DNA of 64,000 nucleotides from positions 1 through 64,000 of the forward strand of contig NZ_LGCM01000027.1 in assembly GCF_001306035.1 (NCBI RefSeq). Direction: 5' to 3'. Below the pieces are notes generated by a model. The model saw nothing but the letters and a program-made list of their open reading frames with translations, made no database searches and had not been told where the DNA came from. Positions 16,646 through 58,224 of the stretch are shown here, one piece after another. This DNA comes from Levilinea saccharolytica. GTDB lineage: Bacteria > Chloroflexota > Anaerolineae > Anaerolineales > Anaerolineaceae. Numbering within the stretch: position 1 is the stretch's first letter; each line of letters starts with the position of its first letter. Made by a program: the position numbers and the translations under genes.

Positions 16646-17371
16646 TCACCTGGGTTGTCGGTAAAGCTTCCACAACCGGTTGAGGCAATCTTCCAATCGG
16701 GAAGCTAACTCAGGGCCGCGATCGGTGGTGACATCGTCGGCATTTTCAAAAACCACATAGGGAACTGGACGGTTTTGGATGGTGATCCATTCTGGGTCTG
16801 AACTGCTCAACTCCGTCCAGTCCTCTTCTTTATACAGGCGTTCCAGTTTTTCATCTGGCAGGCCGTGTTCCAAAATACTGTCGGGACGGTCTGGATTGAA
16901 TCGTCTCCGATTTTTCCGGAGAGACTCCTCCCACGGGACATTAACATAGAGAATGGCCATTCTTTCAGCAATAGCTGGATCAATATGCTGAAACGCAGAA
17001 CGATAGCCGCCGTGCTCTTTTCCGCGGGAGAACTCCAGGAGGGCGGTCACATCCACGCCAGTGTTGACGTCACGGCAGGATTTTTGGTATTCGAGGCAAA
17101 TGCGCTCGATGAGCAGGTCCCAAAGATATGGGTATTTGAAATTTTCCTGATCGTCTGTATGGAGACGAGGTAAACCCATTTTCGAAAGGAGTCGGTCCTC
17201 TTCAAACCAGGCCCACAACATGGGAAAATCATCAATTTGATGAAAATCCCCAACATGAAAGCGGGTTATCCGCTCTGATTTGGGCAGGTTTGTGAGAAAA
17301 TGAATAATCTCACTTTTCCCAGCCGCCGGACGAGCAATCAACAGCAAGATGTCGAAAACAGAGGATTGCAT
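16646..17371 (-). CDS. Uncharacterised P-loop NTPase/kinase-like protein
   Basis: A 241-residue protein that I do not recognise beyond its fold. Near the N-terminus IARPAAGKSEI is a Walker A-type loop (GKS) after a beta strand, as in nucleoside-kinase or AAA-like P-loop proteins. Downstream are MAILYVNVPWEESLRKNRRR, resembling a kinase lid/arginine segment, and charged residues up to a basic C-terminus. The ATG at 17371 has GGGAG 5 bp upstream; a TTG four codons earlier is possible. It is monocistronic. A role in phosphotransfer or nucleotide-dependent regulation is possible but not shown. Confidence 0.65.
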   Translation of the reverse strand: MQSSVFDILLLIARPAAGKSEIIHFLTNLPKSERITRFHVGDFHQIDDFPMLWAWFEEDRLLSKMGLPRLHTDDQENFKYPYLWDLLIERICLEYQKSCRDVNTGVDVTALLEFSRGKEHGGYRSAFQHIDPAIAERMAILYVNVPWEESLRKNRRRFNPDRPDSILEHGLPDEKLERLYKEEDWTELSSSDPEWITIQNRPVPYVVFENADDVTTDRGPELASRLEDCLNRLWKLYRQPR

Positions 17372-17411
17372 TTTTTCTCCCAATTCAATTCGAAATTAAG
17401 GCAATTTTAGC

Positions 17412-18740
17412 ATGGAACTCGATACGTGCCAGGAAACAGCAGAAGCTGCAAACTCATCGACACCCAAAGCGCCCGCCATCGTTGATGCGAAGGTAGTGAA
17501 ACGAAACTTCTTTTACGGGGTCACCAATGGGGTGCTTTACATCACCGCAGAAACTGTTTTAGATCCGACTTTAGTGTTGGTCAGCTTTTTGAGTCAACTG
17601 ACACAATCGCCAATATTGCTGGGGTTGGTCTTACCGATTCGCGATGGGGCCTGGTCGCTGCCGCAGCTGTGGGTATCGGGCTTTTTGCAGAACCAGCGTC
17701 ACAAGCTGACGTTTTACCGCCAGAGTTCGTATGTCCGCATCGCCAGCTGGGTCTTATTGGCGCTTACCATGAACCTGGTCCATGAGCCGCAAAAACTGCT
17801 GATTGCATTTTTCACTGTGTATATCCTCAGCTCGCTGGCGAACGGTCTGGGAGGGCTGCCGTTCTTAGAAATCGTCAGTAAAACCATCCCTTCTGTGCGA
17901 CGGGGTGAGTTTTTCGCCTGGCGTTTGGGGCTGGGTGGGCTTTTAGGGGTGGCCGGCAGTTTCTTTGTTCGGTGGGTGCTGGATCCCAGGAGCGGCATCG
18001 TCTTTCCATACAATTACGGCCTTCTTGCCAGCCTGTTTTGTGTTTTGGCTACGATCTCAATGATTGTTTTCTATAAAGTGGAAGAGCCGCTGGATCCGGT
18101 TGTGGTGCAGCGCAGCTCATTCGGTGAACAATTTAGGCGCGCACTTGTGGCGCTTAGAGAGGATGTGGATTACCGCCGGTATCTGGCGATGCAAAGCTCA
18201 TTCTTGATGGCTGGCTCGGCTGCGCCGTTTTTTGCCGTGTTTTTGCAGCATGAATTGGGCGGCAGCCCGGCGATGATCGGCGTGTATCTGGCGGTAGTGA
18301 CGGCAACCAACTTGCTGGCAAACATTGGCTTTGGGCGGATTTCTGGAAAAGTTGGCTACCGCAAGGTGCTCATCCTGGCCGCAATCGCCGGCACATTGAT
18401 GTCTATCCTGGTGTTATTGCTGAGTGTACTGGCCAAACCAATGGGAATCTCGACACTGGCGGCTTCTTTGTGGCTTCTGCCGGTATTTTTCCTTTCCTCC
18501 ATTCGCGGAACTGGCAATGGCGTCTCTTCCAGCAGTCTCCTGCTGGGGATCACGCCCGAAAAAGACCGATCATTGTATATCGGCTTTACCAACACCATTC
18601 TTGGCGGGGTGCTGCTGCTTACCGGCGCAAGCGGTCTGCTGGTGAATGCATTGGGCTACCCGGCGCTCTTCGGGTTCACAATCTTGATGCATTTATCCGC
18701 TTTGTTCTTCGTGCTGAAGATCCGCCAAAAAGGTTTGTAA
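17412..18740 (+). CDS. MFS transporter
   Basis: A 442-residue major facilitator protein with about twelve hydrophobic segments and an N-terminal cytoplasmic tail of about 30 residues before the first (FFYGVTNGVLYITAETVLDP). The substrate is unknown. Its 3' end overlaps the convergent ProRS-like gene by 48 bp, so at least one transcript reads antisense into the other. No useful operon context is visible. Confidence 0.82.
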   Translation: MELDTCQETAEAANSSTPKAPAIVDAKVVKRNFFYGVTNGVLYITAETVLDPTLVLVSFLSQLTQSPILLGLVLPIRDGAWSLPQLWVSGFLQNQRHKLTFYRQSSYVRIASWVLLALTMNLVHEPQKLLIAFFTVYILSSLANGLGGLPFLEIVSKTIPSVRRGEFFAWRLGLGGLLGVAGSFFVRWVLDPRSGIVFPYNYGLLASLFCVLATISMIVFYKVEEPLDPVVVQRSSFGEQFRRALVALREDVDYRRYLAMQSSFLMAGSAAPFFAVFLQHELGGSPAMIGVYLAVVTATNLLANIGFGRISGKVGYRKVLILAAIAGTLMSILVLLLSVLAKPMGISTLAASLWLLPVFFLSSIRGTGNGVSSSSLLLGITPEKDRSLYIGFTNTILGGVLLLTGASGLLVNALGYPALFGFTILMHLSALFFVLKIRQKGL

Positions 18741-20303
18741 GGCTTCGGGGATCTCCGAAAGCGGAAGCACCTGCCGTTCTTCTTGGGCGCGCGCTTTCCA
18801 TTCTACGCCACCAGCCTTGAGGGAGCGGTCGCTGAGGGTAAGCCGAATGGGCAGACCTATGAGGTCGGCATCGGCAAATTTTACCCCGGGTGATTCGTCG
18901 CGGTCGTCCCATAAGATTTGAAAGCCGGCCTGGGTGAGTTCCTGGGCCAAGGCCTCGCCCGCAGCTTCGCCGCCCCGCAGGGTGACCAGATGAACATCCA
19001 AGGGACTCAACGCAGCCGGCCAGCACAGACCTGCTGGATCACAATTTGCTTCAGCAGCGGCGCCTAACCAGCCGTTGACAGAAATCTCACAAATCGCGTG
19101 AGAGGCTGGTTTTTGCTGACCCGAAGGATTCAGATACGTCACAGGTAGAGCAGGGGAGTGCCTGGATGATTCGGCCAGAGGTACTGCTGAGACTACCTGC
19201 AGCGGCTGTCCGCAGTTTGGACAGGGGTGACCGGGCTGCACCATCGCAAAATCAGCGGTGAGAGAAGGTTTGTAATCTCGACCCAAATTGACGTTGCGCA
19301 AATGGGTATCCTCTTGATTGGCCCCAGCCACGAGGTTGGGCGCAGATGCAGAAGGATCTGCCACAACATACACGCCGCGCAAACCCACCGGAGAGGCAAA
19401 GCCAGGCACAGCGCCCACTGCGCGGATTTCGTCCTCCGATGCAGGGCGTAAGGAGGAAGCGCCTAAGGCTCTCATCAATTTGTGCTCGTTGACCTCCAGA
19501 TCACCGCGGATAACAGCAAAAACGAAGGTTTCTTTGTGCCCTTCGGGTCGGTCAAATCGTGCTACCAGAAAAACGGCTTTAGCCGTTTGCGACGCAGAGA
19601 TATTCAAAAAGGAAGCTAGTTCGTCAATCGTCTTGACTTTTGGGGTATGCACCGGCTCCACCGGCAGCAGTTCTGCCTGCGGAACGGCAGGGCGCTGAAA
19701 CTGCGCAGAGGCGAGCGGCGCACCGTAACAACAGTGGGGACAAAAGGCAAAATCATGAGAACCGCCAGGGTGAATGAAGACCTCATAGATCGAATGGTTG
19801 AACTTATCCTCCAGGGTCTGGTAAGGAATTCTGCTCTGCGTTAACAACTGCGTAATCTCACGCTGCATCTGCGCTGCCCAAGCCTGTAATGCTGTATCAT
19901 CTGCTGCGGTGCAGCAAAACACAGTTTTTTGCAGCTGCGGAGGGTTGAGCAAGCCTGCATTGGATTTGAACTTTCGGTTTTCCTGCTTCACTTCGGCGAA
20001 TAGAGTGCGCGGGAGATCTTTGTAAGAGCGGATAAAGGGGCGCAGGATGTTGGCAAAAGATTCCACCTGGTTCTCATTCATACTCCCACCAGGCGGAAGG
20101 ATCACTTCTTGGGTGGGGGTGAAGGAGCGAACCCGTTGAACCAGCTTTTGCAGCAGCAGTGCGCCTAAGGGGGGAAAAGCAAGCTGATACCCAGGGGTGA
20201 ATGTGATGCAGCCTGCTCGAAAGAGAAAACGAGCCCCCGGCGCATCAATTTCGGATGGAGCTTCGCGAAGTGTGCGCAGCAACAACTGGCTCATGCGGAT
20301 CAT
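18693..20303 (-). CDS. ProRS-like protein with degenerate aminoacylation motifs (editing and anticodon domains kept)
   Basis: A 536-residue homologue of bacterial prolyl-tRNA synthetase. The start resembles ProS (MSQLLLRTLREAP), and RSYKDLP matches the core. However, the motif 2 block (canonical FRDE, then RFG-MR-REF) reads about ENRKFKSNAGLLNPPQLQ, and motif 3 (GIGVSR) reads about ISVNGWLG, so the ATP-binding Arg residues appear to be missing. The central editing domain is clear (TAKAVFLV, GFASPVGL, GANQEDTHLRNVNLGRD), and the C-terminal anticodon-binding region is present. This suggests a trans-editing or regulatory paralogue rather than a working ProRS; a true proS should exist elsewhere. 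The start at 20303 follows AAGGA; ATG 20294 is an alternative. The gene is 13 bp after pip. Confidence 0.8.
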   Translation of the reverse strand: MIRMSQLLLRTLREAPSEIDAPGARFLFRAGCITFTPGYQLAFPPLGALLLQKLVQRVRSFTPTQEVILPPGGSMNENQVESFANILRPFIRSYKDLPRTLFAEVKQENRKFKSNAGLLNPPQLQKTVFCCTAADDTALQAWAAQMQREITQLLTQSRIPYQTLEDKFNHSIYEVFIHPGGSHDFAFCPHCCYGAPLASAQFQRPAVPQAELLPVEPVHTPKVKTIDELASFLNISASQTAKAVFLVARFDRPEGHKETFVFAVIRGDLEVNEHKLMRALGASSLRPASEDEIRAVGAVPGFASPVGLRGVYVVADPSASAPNLVAGANQEDTHLRNVNLGRDYKPSLTADFAMVQPGHPCPNCGQPLQVVSAVPLAESSRHSPALPVTYLNPSGQQKPASHAICEISVNGWLGAAAEANCDPAGLCWPAALSPLDVHLVTLRGGEAAGEALAQELTQAGFQILWDDRDESPGVKFADADLIGLPIRLTLSDRSLKAGGVEWKARAQEERQVLPLSEIPEALQTFLADLQHEEQSG

Positions 20304-20316
20304 ATAAGCACCGTCC

Positions 20317-21279
20317 TTAGACCTTAAGACTGCGAAAATCATTCGCCGCCTGAACCAATTCCTGGCTGATGCCTGGTTCGTGAGCGGAATGGCCCGCCGC
20401 CGGCACAATTCGCAACTCCGACCCCGGCAGGCTTTTATGCACTTCCCAGGCTGTGCGCATGGGGCAAATCAAATCATAGCGTCCCTGCACAATGCGGCAG
20501 GGCATGCCCAACAGTGAAGATTTGATTTGATTCAAGAGGGCATCATCGCTAGGGAAAAAGGCGCGGTTGATCATGTAATGGCATTCAATGCGGGCGATAG
20601 CCAGAGCATTACGCGGGTCTTCTAAGTAGCTGGCGGCTGCATCGGGGTCAAGGTTCAAGTGAGCAAGTCTGGCCTCCCAGGTGGACCAGGCGACGGCCGC
20701 CTGAAGCCGTGTGGCTTCATCCTCAGAGGTCATCCGTTTATAATACGCACTGACCATATCCTGGCGTTCAGAAAGCGGGATGGGTTCCAAGAAATCTTCC
20801 CAGGCGTCCGGGTAAATCTGCGAAGCCCCTTGCTGATAAAACCAGCTAACTTCAGAAGAACGGCAAAGGAAAATACCACGCAGGATCAGGCCTATGGCGC
20901 GCTGGGGGTGCTGAGAGGCATACGCCAGGGCCAGGGTGCTGCCCCAACTGCCGCCAAACACCAACCATTTTTCAATCGCCAGGGTCGTGCGAAGAGTTTC
21001 GATATCCTGAATCAAGAGCGGGGTGGTATTCTCCCGAATTTCAGCATAGGGAGTAGATTTTCCGGATCCGCGCTGATCGAAGAGGATGATACGGTAATGG
21101 TTGGGGTCAAAAAATTGACGATGAGCAGGGCGGCAGCCGGCACCCGGACCGCCGTGTAAGAAAACCACCGGGGTACCGTTCGGGTTGCCGGATTCCTCAT
21201 AGTACAGAGTATGCAGATCGGATACCTTGAGTTCGCCAATGCGATAGGGTTCAATCTCAGGATAAAGTTCAGTAGTCAT
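20317..21279 (-). CDS. pip: Proline iminopeptidase
   Basis: Removes N-terminal proline from peptides; 320 residues, alpha/beta hydrolase fold. The oxyanion region is HGGPGAG and the substrate-pocket motif is DQRGSGKSTP. The nucleophile Ser is in GGSWGSTLAL, Asp is in the QGRYDLICP segment, and His is in AAGHSAHEP. The ATG at 21279 has AAAGGA about 8 bp upstream; the longer reading from 21450 runs into the preceding gene and lacks support. It lies between the phospholipase D-like gene and the ProRS-like gene; proline is a link with the latter. Confidence 0.95.
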   Translation of the reverse strand: MTTELYPEIEPYRIGELKVSDLHTLYYEESGNPNGTPVVFLHGGPGAGCRPAHRQFFDPNHYRIILFDQRGSGKSTPYAEIRENTTPLLIQDIETLRTTLAIEKWLVFGGSWGSTLALAYASQHPQRAIGLILRGIFLCRSSEVSWFYQQGASQIYPDAWEDFLEPIPLSERQDMVSAYYKRMTSEDEATRLQAAVAWSTWEARLAHLNLDPDAAASYLEDPRNALAIARIECHYMINRAFFPSDDALLNQIKSSLLGMPCRIVQGRYDLICPMRTAWEVHKSLPGSELRIVPAAGHSAHEPGISQELVQAANDFRSLKV

Positions 21280-21325
21280 AGTTGGGTCCTTTGAAGTGTA
21301 TTTGAAGAGGGTTGCCAGATACAGT

Positions 21326-23005
21326 TTATTCGTGCCCAGAGAACACCTGGCGGTCGCGAAATTTGTAGCTGCGCGAGGAAGGATTGAAATAGATATTACT
21401 CCAGGCCTCCGCTTCTTCCAAATAGCGATCTGGTGATTCGACCGCGGCATAAATGGTATTCAGAAATGCGCGCGACTTATAATGATCAAACATACGCATG
21501 AATTCCGTGGCCATAATGGCCGCCAGACGTGAATCACCTTTGATTAAGAAGGCGTTTTCGTCATTTTCGCGGCAGGATGCACGGCTAAAATTGGCAGAAC
21601 CTACCAAGACCGCAGGGGTATCACCCCAGGGATCGATGACCATCAATTTGGTGTGAATCTTGTGTTTTCCAAAAGCACGGGCATCCCAGCTTTTTCCCAT
21701 GTAGGTTTCCAAGCGGGTGGGGGTGAAAAAGCGAGTGTTCTTGCGGCTTAGGCCTTCGATGCTCTTTGTTGCAGTGCTGTTAGCCAGGCCGTATTCCACA
21801 ACGGCTTCTGGGTTTTGGCCCAGGGCTTGCTTGAGGCGCGCATCCATCCCAAAGGGCGTGCTCAACAAGATGACGCTTTTGGCTTCGCGAGTCAGTTCAA
21901 TGGCCGCGTCCACGATGTGGTCACGGCGAACGGGAGAGAAATACACCCCCGATAGGCTGCGAGTCGGATGGTAGGTGATATTGGAGAGCGAAAGCGCCTG
22001 GATTTGTTCTGGCGTGCGCGGTGGGTTTTCACGGCGGCTGGTGGGAAGGTTGGACGCTAAAATTTGGAAATACTGCTCATACGCATCGGCCACGGAAGGC
22101 TGCTCAAAGGTCAATGCCAAATTGGTCTGCAAGTAAAAGCCGGCCTCGGTGAAATTGGTTGTGCCAACCCATAAATGAGTGGGGCTGCCGCCCGTCAACC
22201 GGACGACAAACTTGTTGTGGCTGATTTTCGGCCAGGTGCGCGGAATGGAAATGGCAGGTTGCGCCAGCCCAGCCTGGGATAGGATGTGCTCGCTTTCTTC
22301 GGCAGTATCATTGGGAGATTGCCCTTTGTGATAGACGATTTTGACATCTACCCCCCGGTTGAGGGCTTCTTTCAAGGCACTGGCGATTTCCGGATCATGA
22401 AATTCATAAATTGCCACGTGCAGGCCGTCCCCCTGGCCGGCGGCAGCGATAAATTCCAATAACGATTCGCGCAGGCTGCGCGAAAGCCAGCGGTAGGCGG
22501 CGCCATTGGGAACTTTGGATGGCTCCACATTGTGGAATTCCGTCAGATAGGCGTGGGCCGAGGTGACCCCACGGTTGACGTAGACGCCCACGTGATCCTG
22601 GTCATACAGGCTGGGGCGCGCCCACAAACGCACGGGGTCTAACAAGCGGGTGGATTGCCCGTGCTCCAGAACGGGAAAAATCTCGTACTGATAGGCATAA
22701 TTGGCGCGAACGGTGTAATCGGACCAGCGAAAGCGCTGAAAAGGGGCTTTAGCCGAGGATACTTCAGGACCTTCTGTGTCTTGATCTTTAAACCGTTTCT
22801 GCCCCGAAAGCCAGATCATGCGCTTCATTTCGCCGGTATCGGGATCATACGAGGCGCGGCGGACGGCAAATCCTAAGAGTCCTTTGCGGTCGTAGGTCGG
22901 GTCGATATCCCAGCCTAGAAGGATGGTGTTTGTGCCGACTAAGGCTGCGCCCGAAAACGGGCCTTGTTCGGCGCGGACTACTGGTTGATAAGTCGGCATC
23001 ACCAT
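21326..23005 (-). CDS. Phospholipase D-like (HKD) nuclease or lipase with a beta-rich N-terminal domain
   Basis: A 559-residue protein with two PLD catalytic motifs: SHNKFVVRL followed by GTTNFTEAG, and HTKLMVIDPWG followed by GSANFSRAS. About residues 15-120 precede the PLD core and look like a fibronectin- or Ig-type beta domain. AGGAGG lies 6 bp before the ATG. It begins 17 bp after the recombinase stop, so the two are probably co-transcribed. PLD-fold proteins may be phospholipases, nucleases or transferases; pairing with a recombinase favours nucleic acid, but this is inference. Confidence 0.85.
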   Translation of the reverse strand: MVMPTYQPVVRAEQGPFSGAALVGTNTILLGWDIDPTYDRKGLLGFAVRRASYDPDTGEMKRMIWLSGQKRFKDQDTEGPEVSSAKAPFQRFRWSDYTVRANYAYQYEIFPVLEHGQSTRLLDPVRLWARPSLYDQDHVGVYVNRGVTSAHAYLTEFHNVEPSKVPNGAAYRWLSRSLRESLLEFIAAAGQGDGLHVAIYEFHDPEIASALKEALNRGVDVKIVYHKGQSPNDTAEESEHILSQAGLAQPAISIPRTWPKISHNKFVVRLTGGSPTHLWVGTTNFTEAGFYLQTNLALTFEQPSVADAYEQYFQILASNLPTSRRENPPRTPEQIQALSLSNITYHPTRSLSGVYFSPVRRDHIVDAAIELTREAKSVILLSTPFGMDARLKQALGQNPEAVVEYGLANSTATKSIEGLSRKNTRFFTPTRLETYMGKSWDARAFGKHKIHTKLMVIDPWGDTPAVLVGSANFSRASCRENDENAFLIKGDSRLAAIMATEFMRMFDHYKSRAFLNTIYAAVESPDRYLEEAEAWSNIYFNPSSRSYKFRDRQVFSGHE

Positions 23006-52046: not shown

Positions 52047-55000
52047 TTATTCTTTATTCTGCATCGCCAGCCACACCCGCTCTGGCGTCACAGGGTTAAT
52101 ATCCACATTCGCGCCGCAGGCGTCCAACACTGCATTGCCCACAGCCGGCGCCACCCCGTCCAGGGGGATTTCTGCTACGGCTTTCACGCCAAAGGGATGC
52201 GACGGCTCAAAGGTTTGAATGAACAGCGTGGACAAATCCGGCATTTCATCGGCCCGGAAAATGTGGTAATCCACCAGATCACGTTCCAACGCCGCGCCTT
52301 TTTCGTCATAAAGCATTTCTTCGCATACTGCGTAGCCCAAAGCCTGGGTCATACCGCCTTCTACCTGCCCAGAAGCGGTGATGGGGTTCACGATCACGCC
52401 GGAATCAACCGCCATCAGCAGTTTGTCCACCGTAACCTGCCCCGTCTCAAGGTCTACCGTCACCTCGGCAAATTGCGCAGCAAACGGCGGCGGAGAAACC
52501 GGTGAGACGTAGGAGCCAATCCCCATGATTTGTTCTTGATCCTTGTGGTGCAGGGAATCGTGACCAACCTCTGACAATGTCACAAACCGCTTATCCGGAG
52601 CCATTGCCTTGCGGTCTTCCAACAAAATATCTTCCGGTCGAACCGTGGGCCCATCCCCGCGATCATTCAACATGCGCGCCGCACGAATCTTGATCCGTTC
52701 CGCCGCCTGTTCCGCAGCCCGTACCGCCGCTGCCCCAGATATATAGGTCGTGCTGGAGGCGTATGCACCCTTATCAAAGGGGGTAAAGTCGGTGTCGGAG
52801 GAATAGACGATCATATCCTCAACTGGAACGCCCAGCACTTCGGCCGCCATCTGTGCCAACACAGTATCAGAGCCGGTGCCCAGGTCAGTCGCCCCAATCA
52901 ACAGGTTAAACGAGCCGTCATCATTCATCTTGATGCTCGCCCCGCCCATGTCCAGATACGGGATGGCCGTTCCCTGCATTACCATCGCCACGCCAATCCC
53001 GCGGCGCAAGTGGGGTTTCCCCGGCACCATATGCCATTCCGGATTCCCAAATTTCGAATCCCAGCCCATTTCGGCACGCCCCTGGCGCACACAATCTTCA
53101 AGCCCCACTGTATGGATGATTTCAGGGTTAGGTTCGCGGCCTTCGCTCCATGCGGTACTGAAGGGATGCAGTTCTCCAGGGCGAATGGCGTTCTTCAGAC
53201 GGAATTCCAAAGGATCTAATCCCAACTCGCGGGCGATCTTTTCCATGTGCCGCTCGACCGCCCAATATCCTTGGGGAACGCCGTATCCGCGAAACGCTCC
53301 CGCTGGCGGATGATTGGTGTACACAATATCCGCGTGGAAACGGATGTTCGGGGATTCACGATACGGCCCATCGCCCACATATAAAGCCATGGATTTATGG
53401 CCGGTATTGCCCGTCACCGTTAAAGCGTGACAGCCGTAAGCGCCCGTATCGCTGAGGGCGATCATTTCGTTCGCGGTGAGGGTGCCGTCCTTCTTAACGC
53501 CGGTCTTCATATGAATCCGCATGGGGTGGCGCGAGCGGGAGGCGGTGAATTCCTCTTCACGCGTATACTCAAACAAGACCGGCCGGCCAGTTGCAATGGT
53601 TAAATGCGCCGCCACATCTTCGATGAGCACTTCTTGCTTTCCGCCAAAACCGCCGCCAATGCGCGGTTTGATCACCCGGATTCGTTTTACAGGCAAACCC
53701 AATACCGGTGCTAGCATCCGGCGCACATGGAAGGGCACCTGCGTGCTGGTTCGGATCACCAGGCGGTCATCCTCATCCCAATAGGTGACCACCACATGCG
53801 GTTCAATGTGAGCCTGCTGAACTTTGGGGACCTCATACTCTCCTTCGAAGATGAAATCCGCCTCTGCAAAACCCTTATCCACATTCCCGATATCAATATG
53901 AATTTCTGCCGCCAGGTTCCGTTTCGGATCAGAATCAGCAAAATTGACATATTCCGGCTCATCATGCAAAATCACCGCGCCGGGCTTCATGGCGTCCGCT
54001 GGGTCCAGCAGTAACGGCAGTTCTTCGTATTCAACTTCAATCAGCTTCAAGGCCTCATAAGCAATCTCAGCCGTTTCAGCAGCCACAAAGGCTACCCGAT
54101 CACCCACAAAGCGCACTTTCTTATCCAGAGAGAACATATCCAGCGGCCCAGGGATCGGGTCCGACTGGCCGGCAGTGGAATAAACCACCCGTGGCAGATC
54201 CTCCCATGTCAGCACAGCCGCCACCCCAGGCAACGCCCGTGCTTTGGACACATCAATTTTCTTGATGTTGGCATGCGCCACTGGGCTGTGTAAAACCTTA
54301 GCGACCAACATCCCCCGCATTTCCATATCCGCGGTGAACGCTGGCTTACCCTGGACAAGTTTGATTGCGTCAACCTTGATGTCTGGCTGGCCAATACGTT
54401 GGTATGGCTTCATGCCAGAGGAATCCGTCCAGATTTGCGGCATGATGCGCGTCTGGGTTTCAAGACCTCCGCCAGCCGGCTCTTCCGGTTCACGATTCTC
54501 AACAGGATGGAGAGGATCGCCGCTATCCGGCATCGGCGCATTGGAAGGGTACAGCGGTTCCACTGGTTCGCCGCGCAAAACCGCCGCCGCGCGTTGTACC
54601 GCCTGTACTGGCTTTAAATAACCCGTACAGCGGCACAAAACGCCCGAGAGGACATCCCGAATTTGTTCATCGGTGGGATTCTTCTCCTTTTCAAGCAGCG
54701 AGCGCGCCGCCAGCACCATCGCTGGGGTGCAGTAACCGCATTGCACAGCGCCGACCTCAATAAATGCCTGCTGGATCGCATCCAGACCGCTGGTCTGCTT
54801 CCATCCTTTTCCTTCGCGTTCACCCACATTCTGCACGGTCTGAATGGTGTGCCCTTCTGCTTGTGCCGCCAGCATACCGCATGAATTGACCGGCTTCCCG
54901 TCTAGTAGCACAGTACAGGCTCCACACTCACCGTTATCACATCCCCCAAACTTCACTTCAAAAAATCCAGCATTCCGCATGAACGTCAGAAGGGTCGTAT

Positions 55001-55055
55001 TGGCAGGGGCCTCTTGTTCGATGCTTTTCCCGTTAATGTTCAGTGTGAGCTTCAT
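52047..55055 (-). CDS. Fused 2Fe-2S and molybdopterin-binding subunit of a molybdenum hydroxylase
   Basis: A 1002-residue fusion. Residues 1-160 bind two 2Fe-2S clusters (GGCDNGECGACTVLLDG, CGYCTPAM, CRCTGYLK). A Pro/Glu-rich linker of about 50 residues follows. The rest is the Mo domain with hammerhead, GGGFGGKQE, GAFRGYGVPQG and FGVKAVAEIPLDG with the catalytic Glu. The AVAE form differs from the usual GxGE. ATG 55055 overlaps the upstream FAD gene stop by one base (TGATG), with GGAGGTGA just before. It should pair with the 254-residue FAD subunit. Confidence 0.92.
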   Translation of the reverse strand: MKLTLNINGKSIEQEAPANTTLLTFMRNAGFFEVKFGGCDNGECGACTVLLDGKPVNSCGMLAAQAEGHTIQTVQNVGEREGKGWKQTSGLDAIQQAFIEVGAVQCGYCTPAMVLAARSLLEKEKNPTDEQIRDVLSGVLCRCTGYLKPVQAVQRAAAVLRGEPVEPLYPSNAPMPDSGDPLHPVENREPEEPAGGGLETQTRIMPQIWTDSSGMKPYQRIGQPDIKVDAIKLVQGKPAFTADMEMRGMLVAKVLHSPVAHANIKKIDVSKARALPGVAAVLTWEDLPRVVYSTAGQSDPIPGPLDMFSLDKKVRFVGDRVAFVAAETAEIAYEALKLIEVEYEELPLLLDPADAMKPGAVILHDEPEYVNFADSDPKRNLAAEIHIDIGNVDKGFAEADFIFEGEYEVPKVQQAHIEPHVVVTYWDEDDRLVIRTSTQVPFHVRRMLAPVLGLPVKRIRVIKPRIGGGFGGKQEVLIEDVAAHLTIATGRPVLFEYTREEEFTASRSRHPMRIHMKTGVKKDGTLTANEMIALSDTGAYGCHALTVTGNTGHKSMALYVGDGPYRESPNIRFHADIVYTNHPPAGAFRGYGVPQGYWAVERHMEKIARELGLDPLEFRLKNAIRPGELHPFSTAWSEGREPNPEIIHTVGLEDCVRQGRAEMGWDSKFGNPEWHMVPGKPHLRRGIGVAMVMQGTAIPYLDMGGASIKMNDDGSFNLLIGATDLGTGSDTVLAQMAAEVLGVPVEDMIVYSSDTDFTPFDKGAYASSTTYISGAAAVRAAEQAAERIKIRAARMLNDRGDGPTVRPEDILLEDRKAMAPDKRFVTLSEVGHDSLHHKDQEQIMGIGSYVSPVSPPPFAAQFAEVTVDLETGQVTVDKLLMAVDSGVIVNPITASGQVEGGMTQALGYAVCEEMLYDEKGAALERDLVDYHIFRADEMPDLSTLFIQTFEPSHPFGVKAVAEIPLDGVAPAVGNAVLDACGANVDINPVTPERVWLAMQNKE

Positions 55056-55819
55056 CACTTCACCTCCACATCCCGCAAGCAGCGGGCTGTCAGCGTGGTT
55101 ATTTCGTGTTCAATGAATTCTACAGAATATCTCGATGTAAAATAATGGCTACACGCATTAACAGCAGTTTCAATCGCTCCGCTGCTGTCCGTACCGTCCA
55201 GGACCAACACCACCCGCTCCATCAATCGTCCGCCGATCACGATCCGCGTCCGCCCCGACGGCCATCTCGCCGCAGATGCCATGACCAGGGCCACATCTGC
55301 CGGGCTTCTCCCCACCGCATGATACGCAGCTCGTGCATTCAACGGCAGGGTAATTTGCGTCATCAACGCCCCGAACGGCAGATCTGCTTTTTTCGTCGCC
55401 AGCCAATCGCCCAGGCTGATTTCTTTCCCACCCGGTTCCCAGGTTAATTGCGCGTCTAGCGCCAAACACACCGCCGCAAATGGGCTGTGACCTCCCCCGC
55501 TGACCAATGTCCCTCCGGCAGTGGCCATCTGCCTCAAATTGTGGCTAGCCTCAGCCCGGATAACGTCCACCAAAACAGCCGGAGACTGTGGATCTTCAAG
55601 CAGCCCTTGCAGCTTCACACCGGCCCCAATTTTCAAGTTCTGCCCTTCAACCCGGGTCGCGTGCAGGGGCAGCGCCTGGATGTCAACCACCGCAATAGAC
55701 TGCTTACGGTATCGGCTCAGACTTGTGCCGCCGCCTAACGGGACCGTTGGTGGCGCACTTCGACCCAACAGTGATAGAGCTTCTTCCATTGTGTGAGGGC
55801 GGTGATATTCAATAATCAT
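55055..55819 (-). CDS. FAD-binding (CoxM-type) subunit of a molybdenum hydroxylase
   Basis: A 254-residue FAD subunit, shorter than the usual 280-300. The FAD motif is PLGGGTSLSRYR and the second motif is RQMATAGGTLVSGGGHSPFAAVCLALDA, degenerate relative to TVGGN. The C-terminal domain is abbreviated. It is translationally coupled to the 1002-residue FeS-Mo gene, its evident partner. A 129-bp spacer with a hairpin separates it from the LLM oxidoreductase gene upstream. Confidence 0.85.
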   Translation of the reverse strand: MIIEYHRPHTMEEALSLLGRSAPPTVPLGGGTSLSRYRKQSIAVVDIQALPLHATRVEGQNLKIGAGVKLQGLLEDPQSPAVLVDVIRAEASHNLRQMATAGGTLVSGGGHSPFAAVCLALDAQLTWEPGGKEISLGDWLATKKADLPFGALMTQITLPLNARAAYHAVGRSPADVALVMASAARWPSGRTRIVIGGRLMERVVLVLDGTDSSGAIETAVNACSHYFTSRYSVEFIEHEITTLTARCLRDVEVK

Positions 55820-55948: not shown

Positions 55949-56947
55949 TTACTGGGTCGCAAAAGTGTCAATCAGCAAACGCACATCGCCGCCCACCGGA
56001 TATAAGATCGGGCAGGTGCAGCCGTTTTTCACATATTCAGCGACTTTCGCTTTGGCTTCCGACGGCGTTCCAGAGGCCGTAATGCGCAGGATCAATTCTT
56101 CCGGAACCAAATGCTTGGCTTTCTGAATCTGCTCATGCGTGGCAGGCCACCCTAAAATGGATTGGATCTCAGCCACGACGTCCATGGAAACGCCAGATGC
56201 CTTGGCGATGTGGGGCTGCTGGGCCAGATATTGGGTCAGCAGTTCACGCGAGGTGTCAATGGCTTTATCATGGTCTTCATCCACCGAGCAAACCACCAGC
56301 TGCGGCCGGTCAATGTCGTCGAGTGTACGGCCCGAAAGCTTCGCGCCCGCTTCTAACAATTCCAGGGCTTTGTGGTTGTATTCCGGAGGTACGCAGTAAT
56401 TCAACACAGCGCCGTCCGCAATCTCACCTGTCATTTCCATCATCTTATCGCCGGTGGCGCCGATAAAAATGGGCACATTTCGCGGCTCCCGGCGGCCGTG
56501 AACCACATCCAGTTCAATCCCGTCCACATTGATAAATTCGCTGTGGAATGTAACCCGCTCCATATTGAGCAGTTTGCGCAGAACGACCACCGTATCGCGC
56601 ATGGCCTGAAGCGGTTTTTTGCGGTCAATCCCCACATTTTTCGCCAGCGGATCCCACCACGCACCAATACCGCAAATCACACGGTTCGGCGCCAGATCGT
56701 CCAGGGTCAAAAAGGTCGCCGCCAACAGGCCGATGTTGCGCGTCCAGTTATTGATCACCCCAGAGCCTACGATTAACTTCTCGGTAACAGCCGCATACGC
56801 CGCCATAGGTACGATCGCGTCGCGCACCAGTCGGCTTTCAGCCTGCCATACTGCTTCAAACCCACGTTTTTCGGCATATTTCACATAATCCAGGCCGTCG
56901 CGTAAATCATGCGAATCCTGCAAATAAAGGGCTACACGGTCGCTCAT
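55949..56947 (-). CDS. LLM-class (F420-type) flavin-like oxidoreductase
   Basis: A 332-residue luciferase-like monooxygenase-family protein related to F420-dependent methylenetetrahydromethanopterin reductase and glucose-6-phosphate dehydrogenase types. The start is [29 protein letters not shown]-like (a shortened reading), with [17 protein letters not shown] and [24 protein letters not shown]-like segments. The ATG at 56947 has GGAGG 6 bp upstream, so 56959 is rejected. The nearby cofC, cofE and F420 reductase make F420 the likely cofactor; FMN is the alternative. The substrate is unknown. Confidence 0.85.
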
Positions 56948-56991
56948 GAGTTCCTCCAAAATTGGTTAAGGGCTGGGCGTTCTACCTCTGG

Positions 56992-57594
56992 TTAAACCTG
57001 CTCCACCTGGTTGAGGTATTCAAGGTCTTCCGGAGAATCAAGGTCGAACGCAAGGGTTGGAAGTGACAAGATTTCTAACCGGGTTCCGTGGGCTATCGCC
57101 TGTTTTTGATACCGTTCCACAGATCCCTTTCCAAAGGTTACTTTGAACATTTCAATCGGGTTAATCAGCACTACATTAACCCCATCGTTTTTTCGGTCGG
57201 GAGCAATGATCATCTCAGGCGGTTGAACCGCGTGAGCCAACATCGTTTGCACATCTTCCGGCGCCAACAATGGTAAATCTGCTGCTACGATCAGTAATGC
57301 GCGGGCAGCGTAAGCCCTTGCCACCGCCGCGGCTCGCTGCAAAACCACTTCGAGCGGCGAGTTCGGGTCTTCCTGTAAGGTTCTCGCCCCGTAATCGCGT
57401 GCCATAGACAGGACAGAAGAATCACGGCTGATCACCAGGACCTGATCGATTTCCTGCACGCTGGACAAAACTTGCAGCGTATTTCCCAACATGGTAAGGT
57501 TTAATGTTAAGCGTTCTTCTTCGTCCAATACATCCGATAACTGCGGCTTGCTCATTCGTAAAGGCTTTACTGGAACGATTGCCCAGAGGCTCAT
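56992..57594 (-). CDS. cofC: 2-phospho-L-lactate guanylyltransferase (F420 synthesis)
   Basis: A 200-residue CofC-family nucleotidyltransferase, which activates the phospholactate (or PEP) moiety of coenzyme F420 with GTP. The start WAIVPVKPLRMSKPQLSDVL is the CofC signature, followed by VAADLPLLAPEDV and DRKNDGVNVVLINP. GGAGGG lies about 13 bp before the ATG. A -10-like hexamer lies in the 93-bp spacer upstream. It is a relative of MocA, but the CofC motifs and nearby cofE favour F420 synthesis. Confidence 0.9.
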   Translation of the reverse strand: MSLWAIVPVKPLRMSKPQLSDVLDEEERLTLNLTMLGNTLQVLSSVQEIDQVLVISRDSSVLSMARDYGARTLQEDPNSPLEVVLQRAAAVARAYAARALLIVAADLPLLAPEDVQTMLAHAVQPPEMIIAPDRKNDGVNVVLINPIEMFKVTFGKGSVERYQKQAIAHGTRLEILSLPTLAFDLDSPEDLEYLNQVEQV

Positions 57595-57632
57595 CAGCTT
57601 TGCAGCCCTCCATACAGAAATTGATATATTAA

Positions 57633-57638
57633 ATTATA
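57633..57638 (-). promoter_or_regulatory. Possible internal promoter before cofC
   Basis: TATAAT is read on the minus strand, 38 bp upstream of the cofC ATG in the longest spacer of the upstream half of the operon (93 bp). No matching -35 hexamer at 16-18 bp, so only a weak internal promoter can be proposed. Confidence 0.3.
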
Positions 57639-57687
57639 CTCCCGCGCGCCAGTCATGAGCCGTCAGCTCAGGCAGCAAAATTCCGCT

Positions 57688-58224
57688 TCACAACGGGATT
57701 TTTCGGTAAATGCCCTCCTCGTGATCAGTTTGATAAATTACAGCCAGATTATTGATCTCAAAAGAATACCGCTCAGGTGGTGTTGGAATCAGCGCATCCA
57801 AAGCACAAGGCGCTTGCCGCAAGGTTCCATCGTGATACACCATCGTGATGTGCGGCATCCATACCGCCGGGGCATAATACGCATTGATGCCCTTTGCCCG
57901 CAGGCTCAATACGGCCCACAATTGCTGGTGCATTTTCTGAATCGCTTCAGTCTTCAATACCCCAAGGGTCACCGTGGGGAAATCCCCTGGAAACACACCG
58001 TACCCCCACACATTCGCCTGTGTTGGCGCAAAATTGCGTGATAGCCGCTCAAGCTCAGTCATACTACCCTCAAGCTCCAACTCCTCTACCGCCATCCAGG
58101 TCAGATGCGGCTGATGAACCGCCTGTAAGTCTTCTGATTCACATACAGTCTCTGCCGGGGCCTGAGCTGTTTTGCCAGACCATACCTGACTTTCGTTAAC
58201 CAGAGAGACAATCGCGATCATCAT
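57688..58224 (-). CDS. 2H phosphoesterase (2'-5' RNA ligase-like) protein
   Basis: A 178-residue protein of the 2H phosphoesterase fold, with the two HxT/S-type motifs HLTW (about residue 40) and HITM (about residue 124). Such proteins cleave 2'-3' or 2'-5' cyclic phosphates. It starts one base inside the cofE stop (TAATG), so it is coupled to cofE. Why it lies among F420 genes is not known; it may process a nucleotide by-product. Confidence 0.8.
   Translation of the reverse strand: MMIAIVSLVNESQVWSGKTAQAPAETVCESEDLQAVHQPHLTWMAVEELELEGSMTELERLSRNFAPTQANVWGYGVFPGDFPTVTLGVLKTEAIQKMHQQLWAVLSLRAKGINAYYAPAVWMPHITMVYHDGTLRQAPCALDALIPTPPERYSFEINNLAVIYQTDHEEGIYRKIPL

Follow-up and report, generated by a model that had tools for sequence, protein, structure and literature searches.

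We describe a gene of Levilinea saccharolytica whose product is a homologue of bacterial family II prolyl-tRNA synthetase (ProRS) without the residues of aminoacylation. The gene lies in a 64,000-nucleotide stretch of DNA (the window; positions 1 to 64,000 of contig NZ_LGCM01000027.1), on the minus strand, its reading frame running from an ATG at 20303 to a stop at 18693 and encoding a protein of 536 amino acids, here called pseudo-ProRS. A first-pass annotation had given the same coordinates, correctly, and had proposed a ProRS pseudoenzyme that might clear mischarged Ala-tRNA(Pro) in trans or act as a regulator. The pseudoenzyme proposal is well supported, since the catalytic residues are gone in both species of the genus that were compared, the gene is under purifying selection and the genome encodes a second ProRS. 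The feature is real, and the product belongs to a group of ProRS-derived proteins that is both recurrent and conserved and whose members most likely edit Ala-tRNA(Pro) in trans.

The active site is lost while the editing and anticodon-binding domains are kept

The protein was aligned to E. coli K-12 ProRS (572 amino acids), whose numbering is used unless stated otherwise; all features of the gene given below are on the minus strand. Nine catalytic positions were scored: T109, E111, R140, R146, R153, E154, G445, G447 and R450. All nine are replaced, as are R151, E410 and F415. The N-terminal, degenerate class II core (residues 1-180 of the protein, 19764..20303) keeps the motif 1 proline (P45). 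In the TxE loop (residues 78-80, 20064..20072), T109 and E111 have become N78 and V80, and the segment ahead of this loop is missing. At the motif 2 position (residues 109-124, 19932..19979), R140, R146, R151, R153, E154 and F155 are all replaced, R140 by N109 and R153/E154 by P122/Q123. At the motif 3 position (GxGxxR; residues 403-411, 19071..19097), G445, G447 and R450 correspond to E406, S408 and G411. The lost residues are those that we take to handle ATP and proline. The replacement of motifs 2 and 3 announced by the first-pass annotation is thus borne out, the alignment restoring none of the arginines. Its description of the protein as full-length is nearly right, given the 536 residues and the retained motif 1 proline, apart from the stretch missing before the TxE loop.

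These losses are reflected in profile searches. A Pfam scan left the class II core (PF00587) unmatched, even at E values up to 1, and the NCBIfam ProRS models score far under their cut-offs (NF006625, 250.7 of 558 bits, compared with 668-727 for four intact relatives; TIGR00409, 167.8 of 306.7 bits). The same Pfam scan matched the editing domain (PF04073, E 1.9e-24) and the anticodon-binding domain (PF03129, E 1.1e-14), both of which had been described as well kept and proved to be so at the residue level too. Within the INS/tRNA_edit domain (residues 220-340, 19284..19646), T257, L266, T277, K279, G336, P340, D350, N364 and H369 are all present (T220, L229, T240, K242, G301, P305, D316, N329 and H334 in the protein's own numbering). 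Of these, K242 and H334 are the counterparts of K279 and H369; K279 apart, the importance of the kept residues for the editing site is presumed, a literature search having given no further paper. Two cysteine pairs, CPHC (C188 and C191, 19731..19742) and CPNC (C361 and C364, 19212..19223), are unchanged in the alignment and form a four-cysteine, zinc-type site that would be expected to bind metal. The tested residues of the anticodon-binding domain (residues 449-523, 18735..18959) are likewise unchanged, with DDRDESPGVKFADADLIG kept.

All eight matches in a sequence search of the PDB were ProRSs, the best being the Enterococcus faecalis enzyme (2j3l, E 1.4e-52). The predicted model (mean pLDDT 93.6, pTM 0.89) superposes on 2j3l with a TM-score of 0.82 (VIA Z 39.8 over 518 residues, root-mean-square deviation 3.6), and its pLDDT across residues 1-180, taken in blocks of ten, is at least 85 except in block 71-80, where it is 60. 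Because the input alignment consisted mostly of intact ProRSs, the fold is not independent evidence and only shows compatibility. The ProRS-like fold is what could be said for a still working ProRS with unusual motifs. Since the residues of the TxE loop and of both later motifs have gone jointly, in a genome that has a further ProRS, we regard this idea as scarcely credible. A lone ProRS with odd motifs was rejected on finding the second proS.

This second proS, anticipated by the first-pass annotation, is the only other ProRS gene in the genome (4.23 megabases in 65 contigs, 97.65% complete). It encodes an apparently intact archaeal-type family I enzyme of 477 amino acids (559.7 bits against a curated cut-off of 437). 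This enzyme is built from a class II core, an anticodon domain and a ProRS-C domain; the Pfam scan found no PF04073 editing domain in it. The tRNA-Pro(UGG) read in the genome is of bacterial type (C1:G72, A73, anticodon UGG, G35/G36); since typing covered 30 of 44 tRNA matches, other tRNA-Pro genes may exist. Given the family I enzyme, charging of tRNA(Pro) need not rely on pseudo-ProRS.

The one other genome available for the genus carries this gene too, at 79% identity, in an open frame and with the same residues lost. The ratio of nonsynonymous to synonymous substitution (dN/dS) between the two species is 0.122 overall, with values of 0.173 for the degenerate N-terminal core, 0.078 for the editing domain and 0.091 for the anticodon-binding domain. 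A ratio of 0.12 to the sister species indicates that the gene is not decaying, and a pseudogene with a broken frame or a ratio near 1 was rejected on these grounds. More generally, a decaying pseudogene would fit the loss of the catalytic motifs, and true decay does occur in a relative (G608, see below). With the frame open in both species, this dN/dS and two domains selectively conserved, decay is a most improbable account here.

Degenerate ProRS homologues recur across Chloroflexota

Homologues were classed as degenerate when keeping five or fewer of the nine scored catalytic residues and as intact when keeping all nine; those with six to eight (6 rows) were called intermediate and placed in neither group. 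As the split was made on catalytic residues, catalytic loss is true by definition, and retention of the editing and anticodon residues is not. Sixty-six degenerate homologues, spanning 11 family codes, were read residue by residue: 48 in a first set and 18 from other families. K279 and H369 are kept in all 66. In the set of 48, T257, K279, G336, P340, D350, N364 and H369 are unchanged throughout, L266 and T277 are kept in 46 each (L266 becoming V in two, T277 L in two), the second cysteine is changed in two, and each of the ten anticodon-domain positions tested is conserved in 45-47 of the 47 sequences long enough to include it. The TxE, motif 2 and motif 3 positions are variable or gapped across the same 48. 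The other 18 show the same pattern, the exceptions being one changed cysteine in L291, V for L266 in L290 and L297, and L for F520 in L300.

This conservation bears on the possibility that pseudo-ProRS has given up hydrolysis and binds tRNA(Pro) as a regulator or chaperone. Synthetase paralogues can adopt other roles, HisZ being an example (PMC7373986), and the anticodon-binding domain is kept. A mere binder would not need the compared Lys, His, Gly and Pro positions of the editing site, which are invariant in 66 of 66 homologues, making such a role improbable.

Of the 147 genomes of the gene's own family, 82 encode a family II homologue and 133 a family I ProRS. Twenty of the 82 family II genes are degenerate, 53 intact and 3 intermediate; 4 are cut by contig ends and 2 are fragments (G072, G153) left unscored. 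Beyond this family, degenerate forms are present in five more families of the order; at the residue level they extend to three additional family codes within the class and to two from elsewhere. Among 80 named loci, 71 keep nine of nine catalytic residues, including those of Spirochaetes and Dehalococcoidia, and six are degenerate, one on a Thermoflexales and one on an Ardenticatenia contig; the rest are two intermediates (L119, L150) and one cut copy (L180). On the Ardenticatenia contig (L147:1331-7425) the degenerate proS is directly upstream of two putative nusA and infB genes; this position would fit descent from the ancestral proS.

In one family the protein is shortened to about 395-408 amino acids (L104, ~395; L105, ~399; L225, ~408; L226, 408). 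These shortest forms consist of an N-terminal stub, lack the TxE/motif 2 segment, and continue with the cysteine, editing and anticodon parts. L104, L105 and L225 entered alignments, pair comparisons and trees without the stub, so that their TxE and motif 2 columns are gaps and their editing and anticodon columns are unaffected. Rows cut by contig ends (L079, L088, L096, L097, L180, L224, L289 and L294) were dropped together with the broken L304; the C-terminally cut L102 was retained among the 48. Weak matches without a locus (G681, G605 and a second one in G714) were left unscored.

A phylum scan at E 1e-40 matched 239 of 400 genomes, 203 of them over the ProRS cut-off, and missed the shortest forms (G047, G060); individual matches are known only among the matches listed. 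Six genomes under the cut-off keep eight of nine catalytic residues and were not counted as degenerate. Because the loci followed up were hand-picked, as weak-E-value handles plus three strong ones, and the comparison genomes likewise, no rate is claimed.

Comparison of pairs revealed a complete inversion of constraint. Between intact homologues, the catalytic N-terminus is more alike than the editing and anticodon domains in 98-100% of pairs per identity bin; between degenerate ones this holds for 0 of 905 binned pairs. The sequences being related, these counts, like the Fisher test given below, are not independent tests.

The degenerate state seems to have arisen several times

Trees were built from chosen rows using editing and anticodon columns only, motif 3 being left out. 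One tree had 161 rows thinned by identity (45 degenerate, 110 intact, 6 intermediate), a second 80 rows (31 of the 48 degenerate, 49 intact) and a third 82 rows (40 of the 66 degenerate, 42 intact). The last two omit the long row L103, which is the most divergent degenerate copy and has the longest branch among degenerate rows in the 161-row tree.

The degenerate label needs 7 changes in the 161-row tree and 6 in the 80-row tree, well-supported branches forcing at least 3 in either case. In the 82-row tree, which includes other classes, 8 changes are needed and well-supported branches force at least 6; its 200 bootstrap trees, not fully settled, range from 8 to 10, and none of them has a single origin. 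Genus g8 offers the clearest case, its degenerate members being nested within intact members of the same genus in the 80-row and 82-row trees. All three trees reject a single-lineage curiosity. Change counts cannot separate loss from gain; regain of a whole active site seems the less likely direction.

Most degenerate genes accompany a family I ProRS

A family I ProRS was found in 58 of 64 degenerate genomes checked. These comprise 19 of 20 in the gene's own family (the exception being 61% complete), 21 of the 26 read in the rest of the order (counting one partial match), where the figure for intact genomes is 7 of 26, and 18 of 18 further genomes with a degenerate gene. The order comparison left out one intermediate genome, which has family I. 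When restricted to genomes at least 90% complete, in the order and outside the own family, the proportions are 16 of 17 for degenerate and 4 of 15 for intact (Fisher p 1.3e-4, uncorrected for relatedness). The contrast is weak inside the own family, as 49 of its 53 intact genomes have family I too.

In some relatives the two ProRS genes are neighbours on one strand. In G219 (contig C19) a family I match (53987-55399) is followed by a partly changed family II match (55980-57728); in G601 (C1:1450939-1454085, family code f39) the family I and family II matched stretches are in tandem, 21 bases apart. Such pairs would suit a split ProRS, in which the degenerate protein is an editing subunit complexed with the family I enzyme and receives Ala-tRNA(Pro) directly from it, and is not a free trans-editor. 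Neither pair includes a fully degenerate protein, the G219 copy being intermediate and the G601 copy scoring over the ProRS cut-off; moreover, the genes are on different contigs in the genome of the window and about 1.5 megabases apart in G047. We consider a split enzyme unlikely, while granting it a modest chance.

The G219 family II copy (L213), directly beside family I, has lost the TxE residues and kept the scored motif 2 and motif 3 residues; it is possibly an intermediate stage. In G608 (C1:1462518-1465659, also f39), the family II copy adjoining family I is in three separate pieces with a stop, and looks like an alternative fate.

A predicted proofreader for another synthetase

Loss of the ATP and proline residues together with retention of INS and the anticodon-binding domain is the pattern expected of a proofreader serving another synthetase. 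In ProRS, INS has no tRNA recognition of its own and tolerates acceptor-stem changes; its clearing of Ala-tRNA(Pro) depends on recognition of G35/G36 by the anticodon-binding domain, and K279A ProRS is an editing-defective mutant (PMC3973320). Complete ProRS is already able to act in trans (PMC4787780). In 34% of bacteria the ProRS has no functional editing domain, and many bacteria thus depend on ProXp-ala, according to the paper that describes the mutant (PMC3973320).

We think it probable that a bacterial-type ProRS was made redundant by the family I enzyme, that its catalysis eroded and that it now serves as a stand-alone Ala-tRNA(Pro) proofreader. Family II ProRS would have become redundant where an archaeal-type family I ProRS, itself without an editing domain, charges tRNA(Pro). 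The aminoacylation site would then have eroded, INS deacylase and anticodon-binding domain being kept; the latter would select tRNA(Pro) by G35/G36, and the INS site would remove Ala, by hydrolysis, from the Ala-tRNA(Pro) that leaves the family I enzyme. Trans-editing is the best-supported function, judging from residue conservation and published biochemistry; from these we infer deacylation, a preference for Ala, the role in vivo and the order of events.

Several observations weigh against this interpretation. The genome of the window also encodes a single-domain relative of ProXp-ala (L034, G000 C3:28008-28508; E 7.3e-27 to 5vxb), a relative of YbaK (below its model's cut-off) and two more single-domain INS-like proteins (L033, L035), so that Ala-tRNA(Pro) could be cleared without pseudo-ProRS. 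A ProXp-ala match was obtained in 4 of the 20 degenerate genomes of the own family; in 47 of the 147 own-family genomes, a count that takes in incomplete assemblies, these searches gave no match to family II ProRS or to ProXp-ala, so that INS-type Ala-tRNA(Pro) editing may not always be required. Redundancy alone does not force loss, for in the own family 49 intact family II enzymes exist alongside family I. The search for family I ProRS found none in G053, which is 96% complete and carries the degenerate gene L103, nor in four other degenerate genomes of the order that are 62-82% complete; in G053, either the proS is missing from the assembly or the association with family I does not always hold. 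Finally L026, degenerate by its residues, passes the TIGR00409 cut-off (349.8 against 306.7). This last case cautions that a gene annotated from homology as proline--tRNA ligase may be something else.

The notion that pseudo-ProRS is retained because no other Ala-tRNA(Pro) editor exists fails in this genome, where the ProXp-ala relative was found. If that relative already covers Ala, pseudo-ProRS might deacylate tRNA(Pro) bearing another amino acid; members of the INS superfamily have diverged in specificity (PMC11295145). The compared INS positions, however, match those of intact ProRS, and 16 of the 20 degenerate own-family genomes gave no ProXp-ala match (with one query at E 1e-8, which divergent copies may escape). 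We therefore hold a different substrate to be unlikely, and a proofreader of Ala-tRNA(Pro) remains our preferred interpretation.

Two further observations concern these editing proteins. The YbaK-like gene is present in two copies, L037 and L038 (G000 C4:14899-15240 and C4:106533-106874), which share a contig and a 340-residue frame but are oppositely oriented, reflecting either a true duplication or an assembly effect. Genus g16 of the own family (G016, G110-G137) has no family II homologue and no ProXp-ala match in any genome, and may be without INS-type Ala-tRNA(Pro) editing.

Comparison with known editing systems

Pseudo-ProRS resembles bacterial family II ProRS (E. coli ProS, E. faecalis 2j3l) in homology near end to end, domain order, INS and anticodon residues and a predicted fold matching 2j3l; it differs in lacking the TxE, motif 2 and motif 3 residues and in scoring below ProRS cut-offs. 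With ProXp-ala it shares the editing-domain superfamily and the presumed substrate. Bacterial ProXp-ala, however, has one domain and reads the acceptor stem (PMC3973320), whereas the 536-residue pseudo-ProRS combines editing and anticodon domains, keeping the anticodon reader of ProRS; the ProXp-ala relative is separate, elsewhere in the genome. Plant ProXp-ala carries an extra C-terminal domain (PMC9425024), and in some eukaryotes ProXp-ala is fused to ProRS (PMC11295145). YbaK also belongs to the INS superfamily, but it is a single domain that acts on Cys-tRNA(Pro) and needs ProRS for tRNA specificity (PMC3973320).

The likeness to archaeal ThrRS-ed lies in the pairing of editing and anticodon-binding domains while another enzyme charges the tRNA (PMC11295145, PMC7373986), editing being predicted in the present case. 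ThrRS-ed belongs to the threonine system and has a DTD-like editing domain, unrelated to INS/PF04073; in the ProRS-derived proteins an eroded core or N-terminal stub remains, and the conversion recurs. The shortest, ~400-residue forms are those that resemble ThrRS-ed.

In the excerpted reviews, INS-superfamily trans-editors are described as single-domain, the plant extension and some eukaryotic fusions excepted; one keeping the ProRS anticodon reader would therefore be a new layout. Searches of open-licence papers gave no report of ProRS pseudoenzymes, ProRS paralogues or proteins of this kind in Chloroflexi; a report elsewhere is possible. It seems fairly likely, if a little less so than the origin proposed above for pseudo-ProRS itself, that these proteins constitute an undescribed class of trans-editors ("ProRS-ed") that keep the anticodon reader of the parent synthetase and were made repeatedly (at least 6 state changes) across Chloroflexota, through erosion of the aminoacylation site of bacterial ProRS in lineages whose charging had passed to an archaeal-type enzyme.

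If so, they would be the proline counterpart of archaeal ThrRS-ed, with charging and proofreading of tRNA(Pro) divided between two synthetases of different ancestry, and living stages would extend from the intact enzyme to a ~400-residue protein made of stub, editing and anticodon parts. Having seemingly arisen several times beside intact relatives, they would offer a natural experiment showing which functions of a synthetase are retained by selection after another enzyme has assumed charging, namely editing together with anticodon binding. They would also make it possible to test how a remote anticodon domain confers tRNA specificity on an editing site in a protein whose catalytic core is eroded or mostly missing.

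Neighbouring genes

The gene directly upstream of pseudo-ProRS (20317..21450, minus strand) encodes prolyl aminopeptidase (TIGR01249, 424.4 bits against a cut-off of 259.75), in agreement with the proline iminopeptidase named by the first-pass annotation. Thirteen bases separate it from the start of the ProRS-like gene, on the same strand, and its stop codon overlaps a Shine-Dalgarno-like AAGGA (20314-20318). Among the loci compared, most of which have short flanks, the two genes are side by side only in the gene's own genus. A functional link to proline aminopeptidase was rejected as not general beyond the genus, a weak test given the mostly short flanks, and the neighbourhood looks incidental. 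Elsewhere in the window, a minus-strand gene at 16646-17383 encodes a 245-residue protein with no Pfam match at E 0.001 and, by eye, a P-loop-like stretch near its start.

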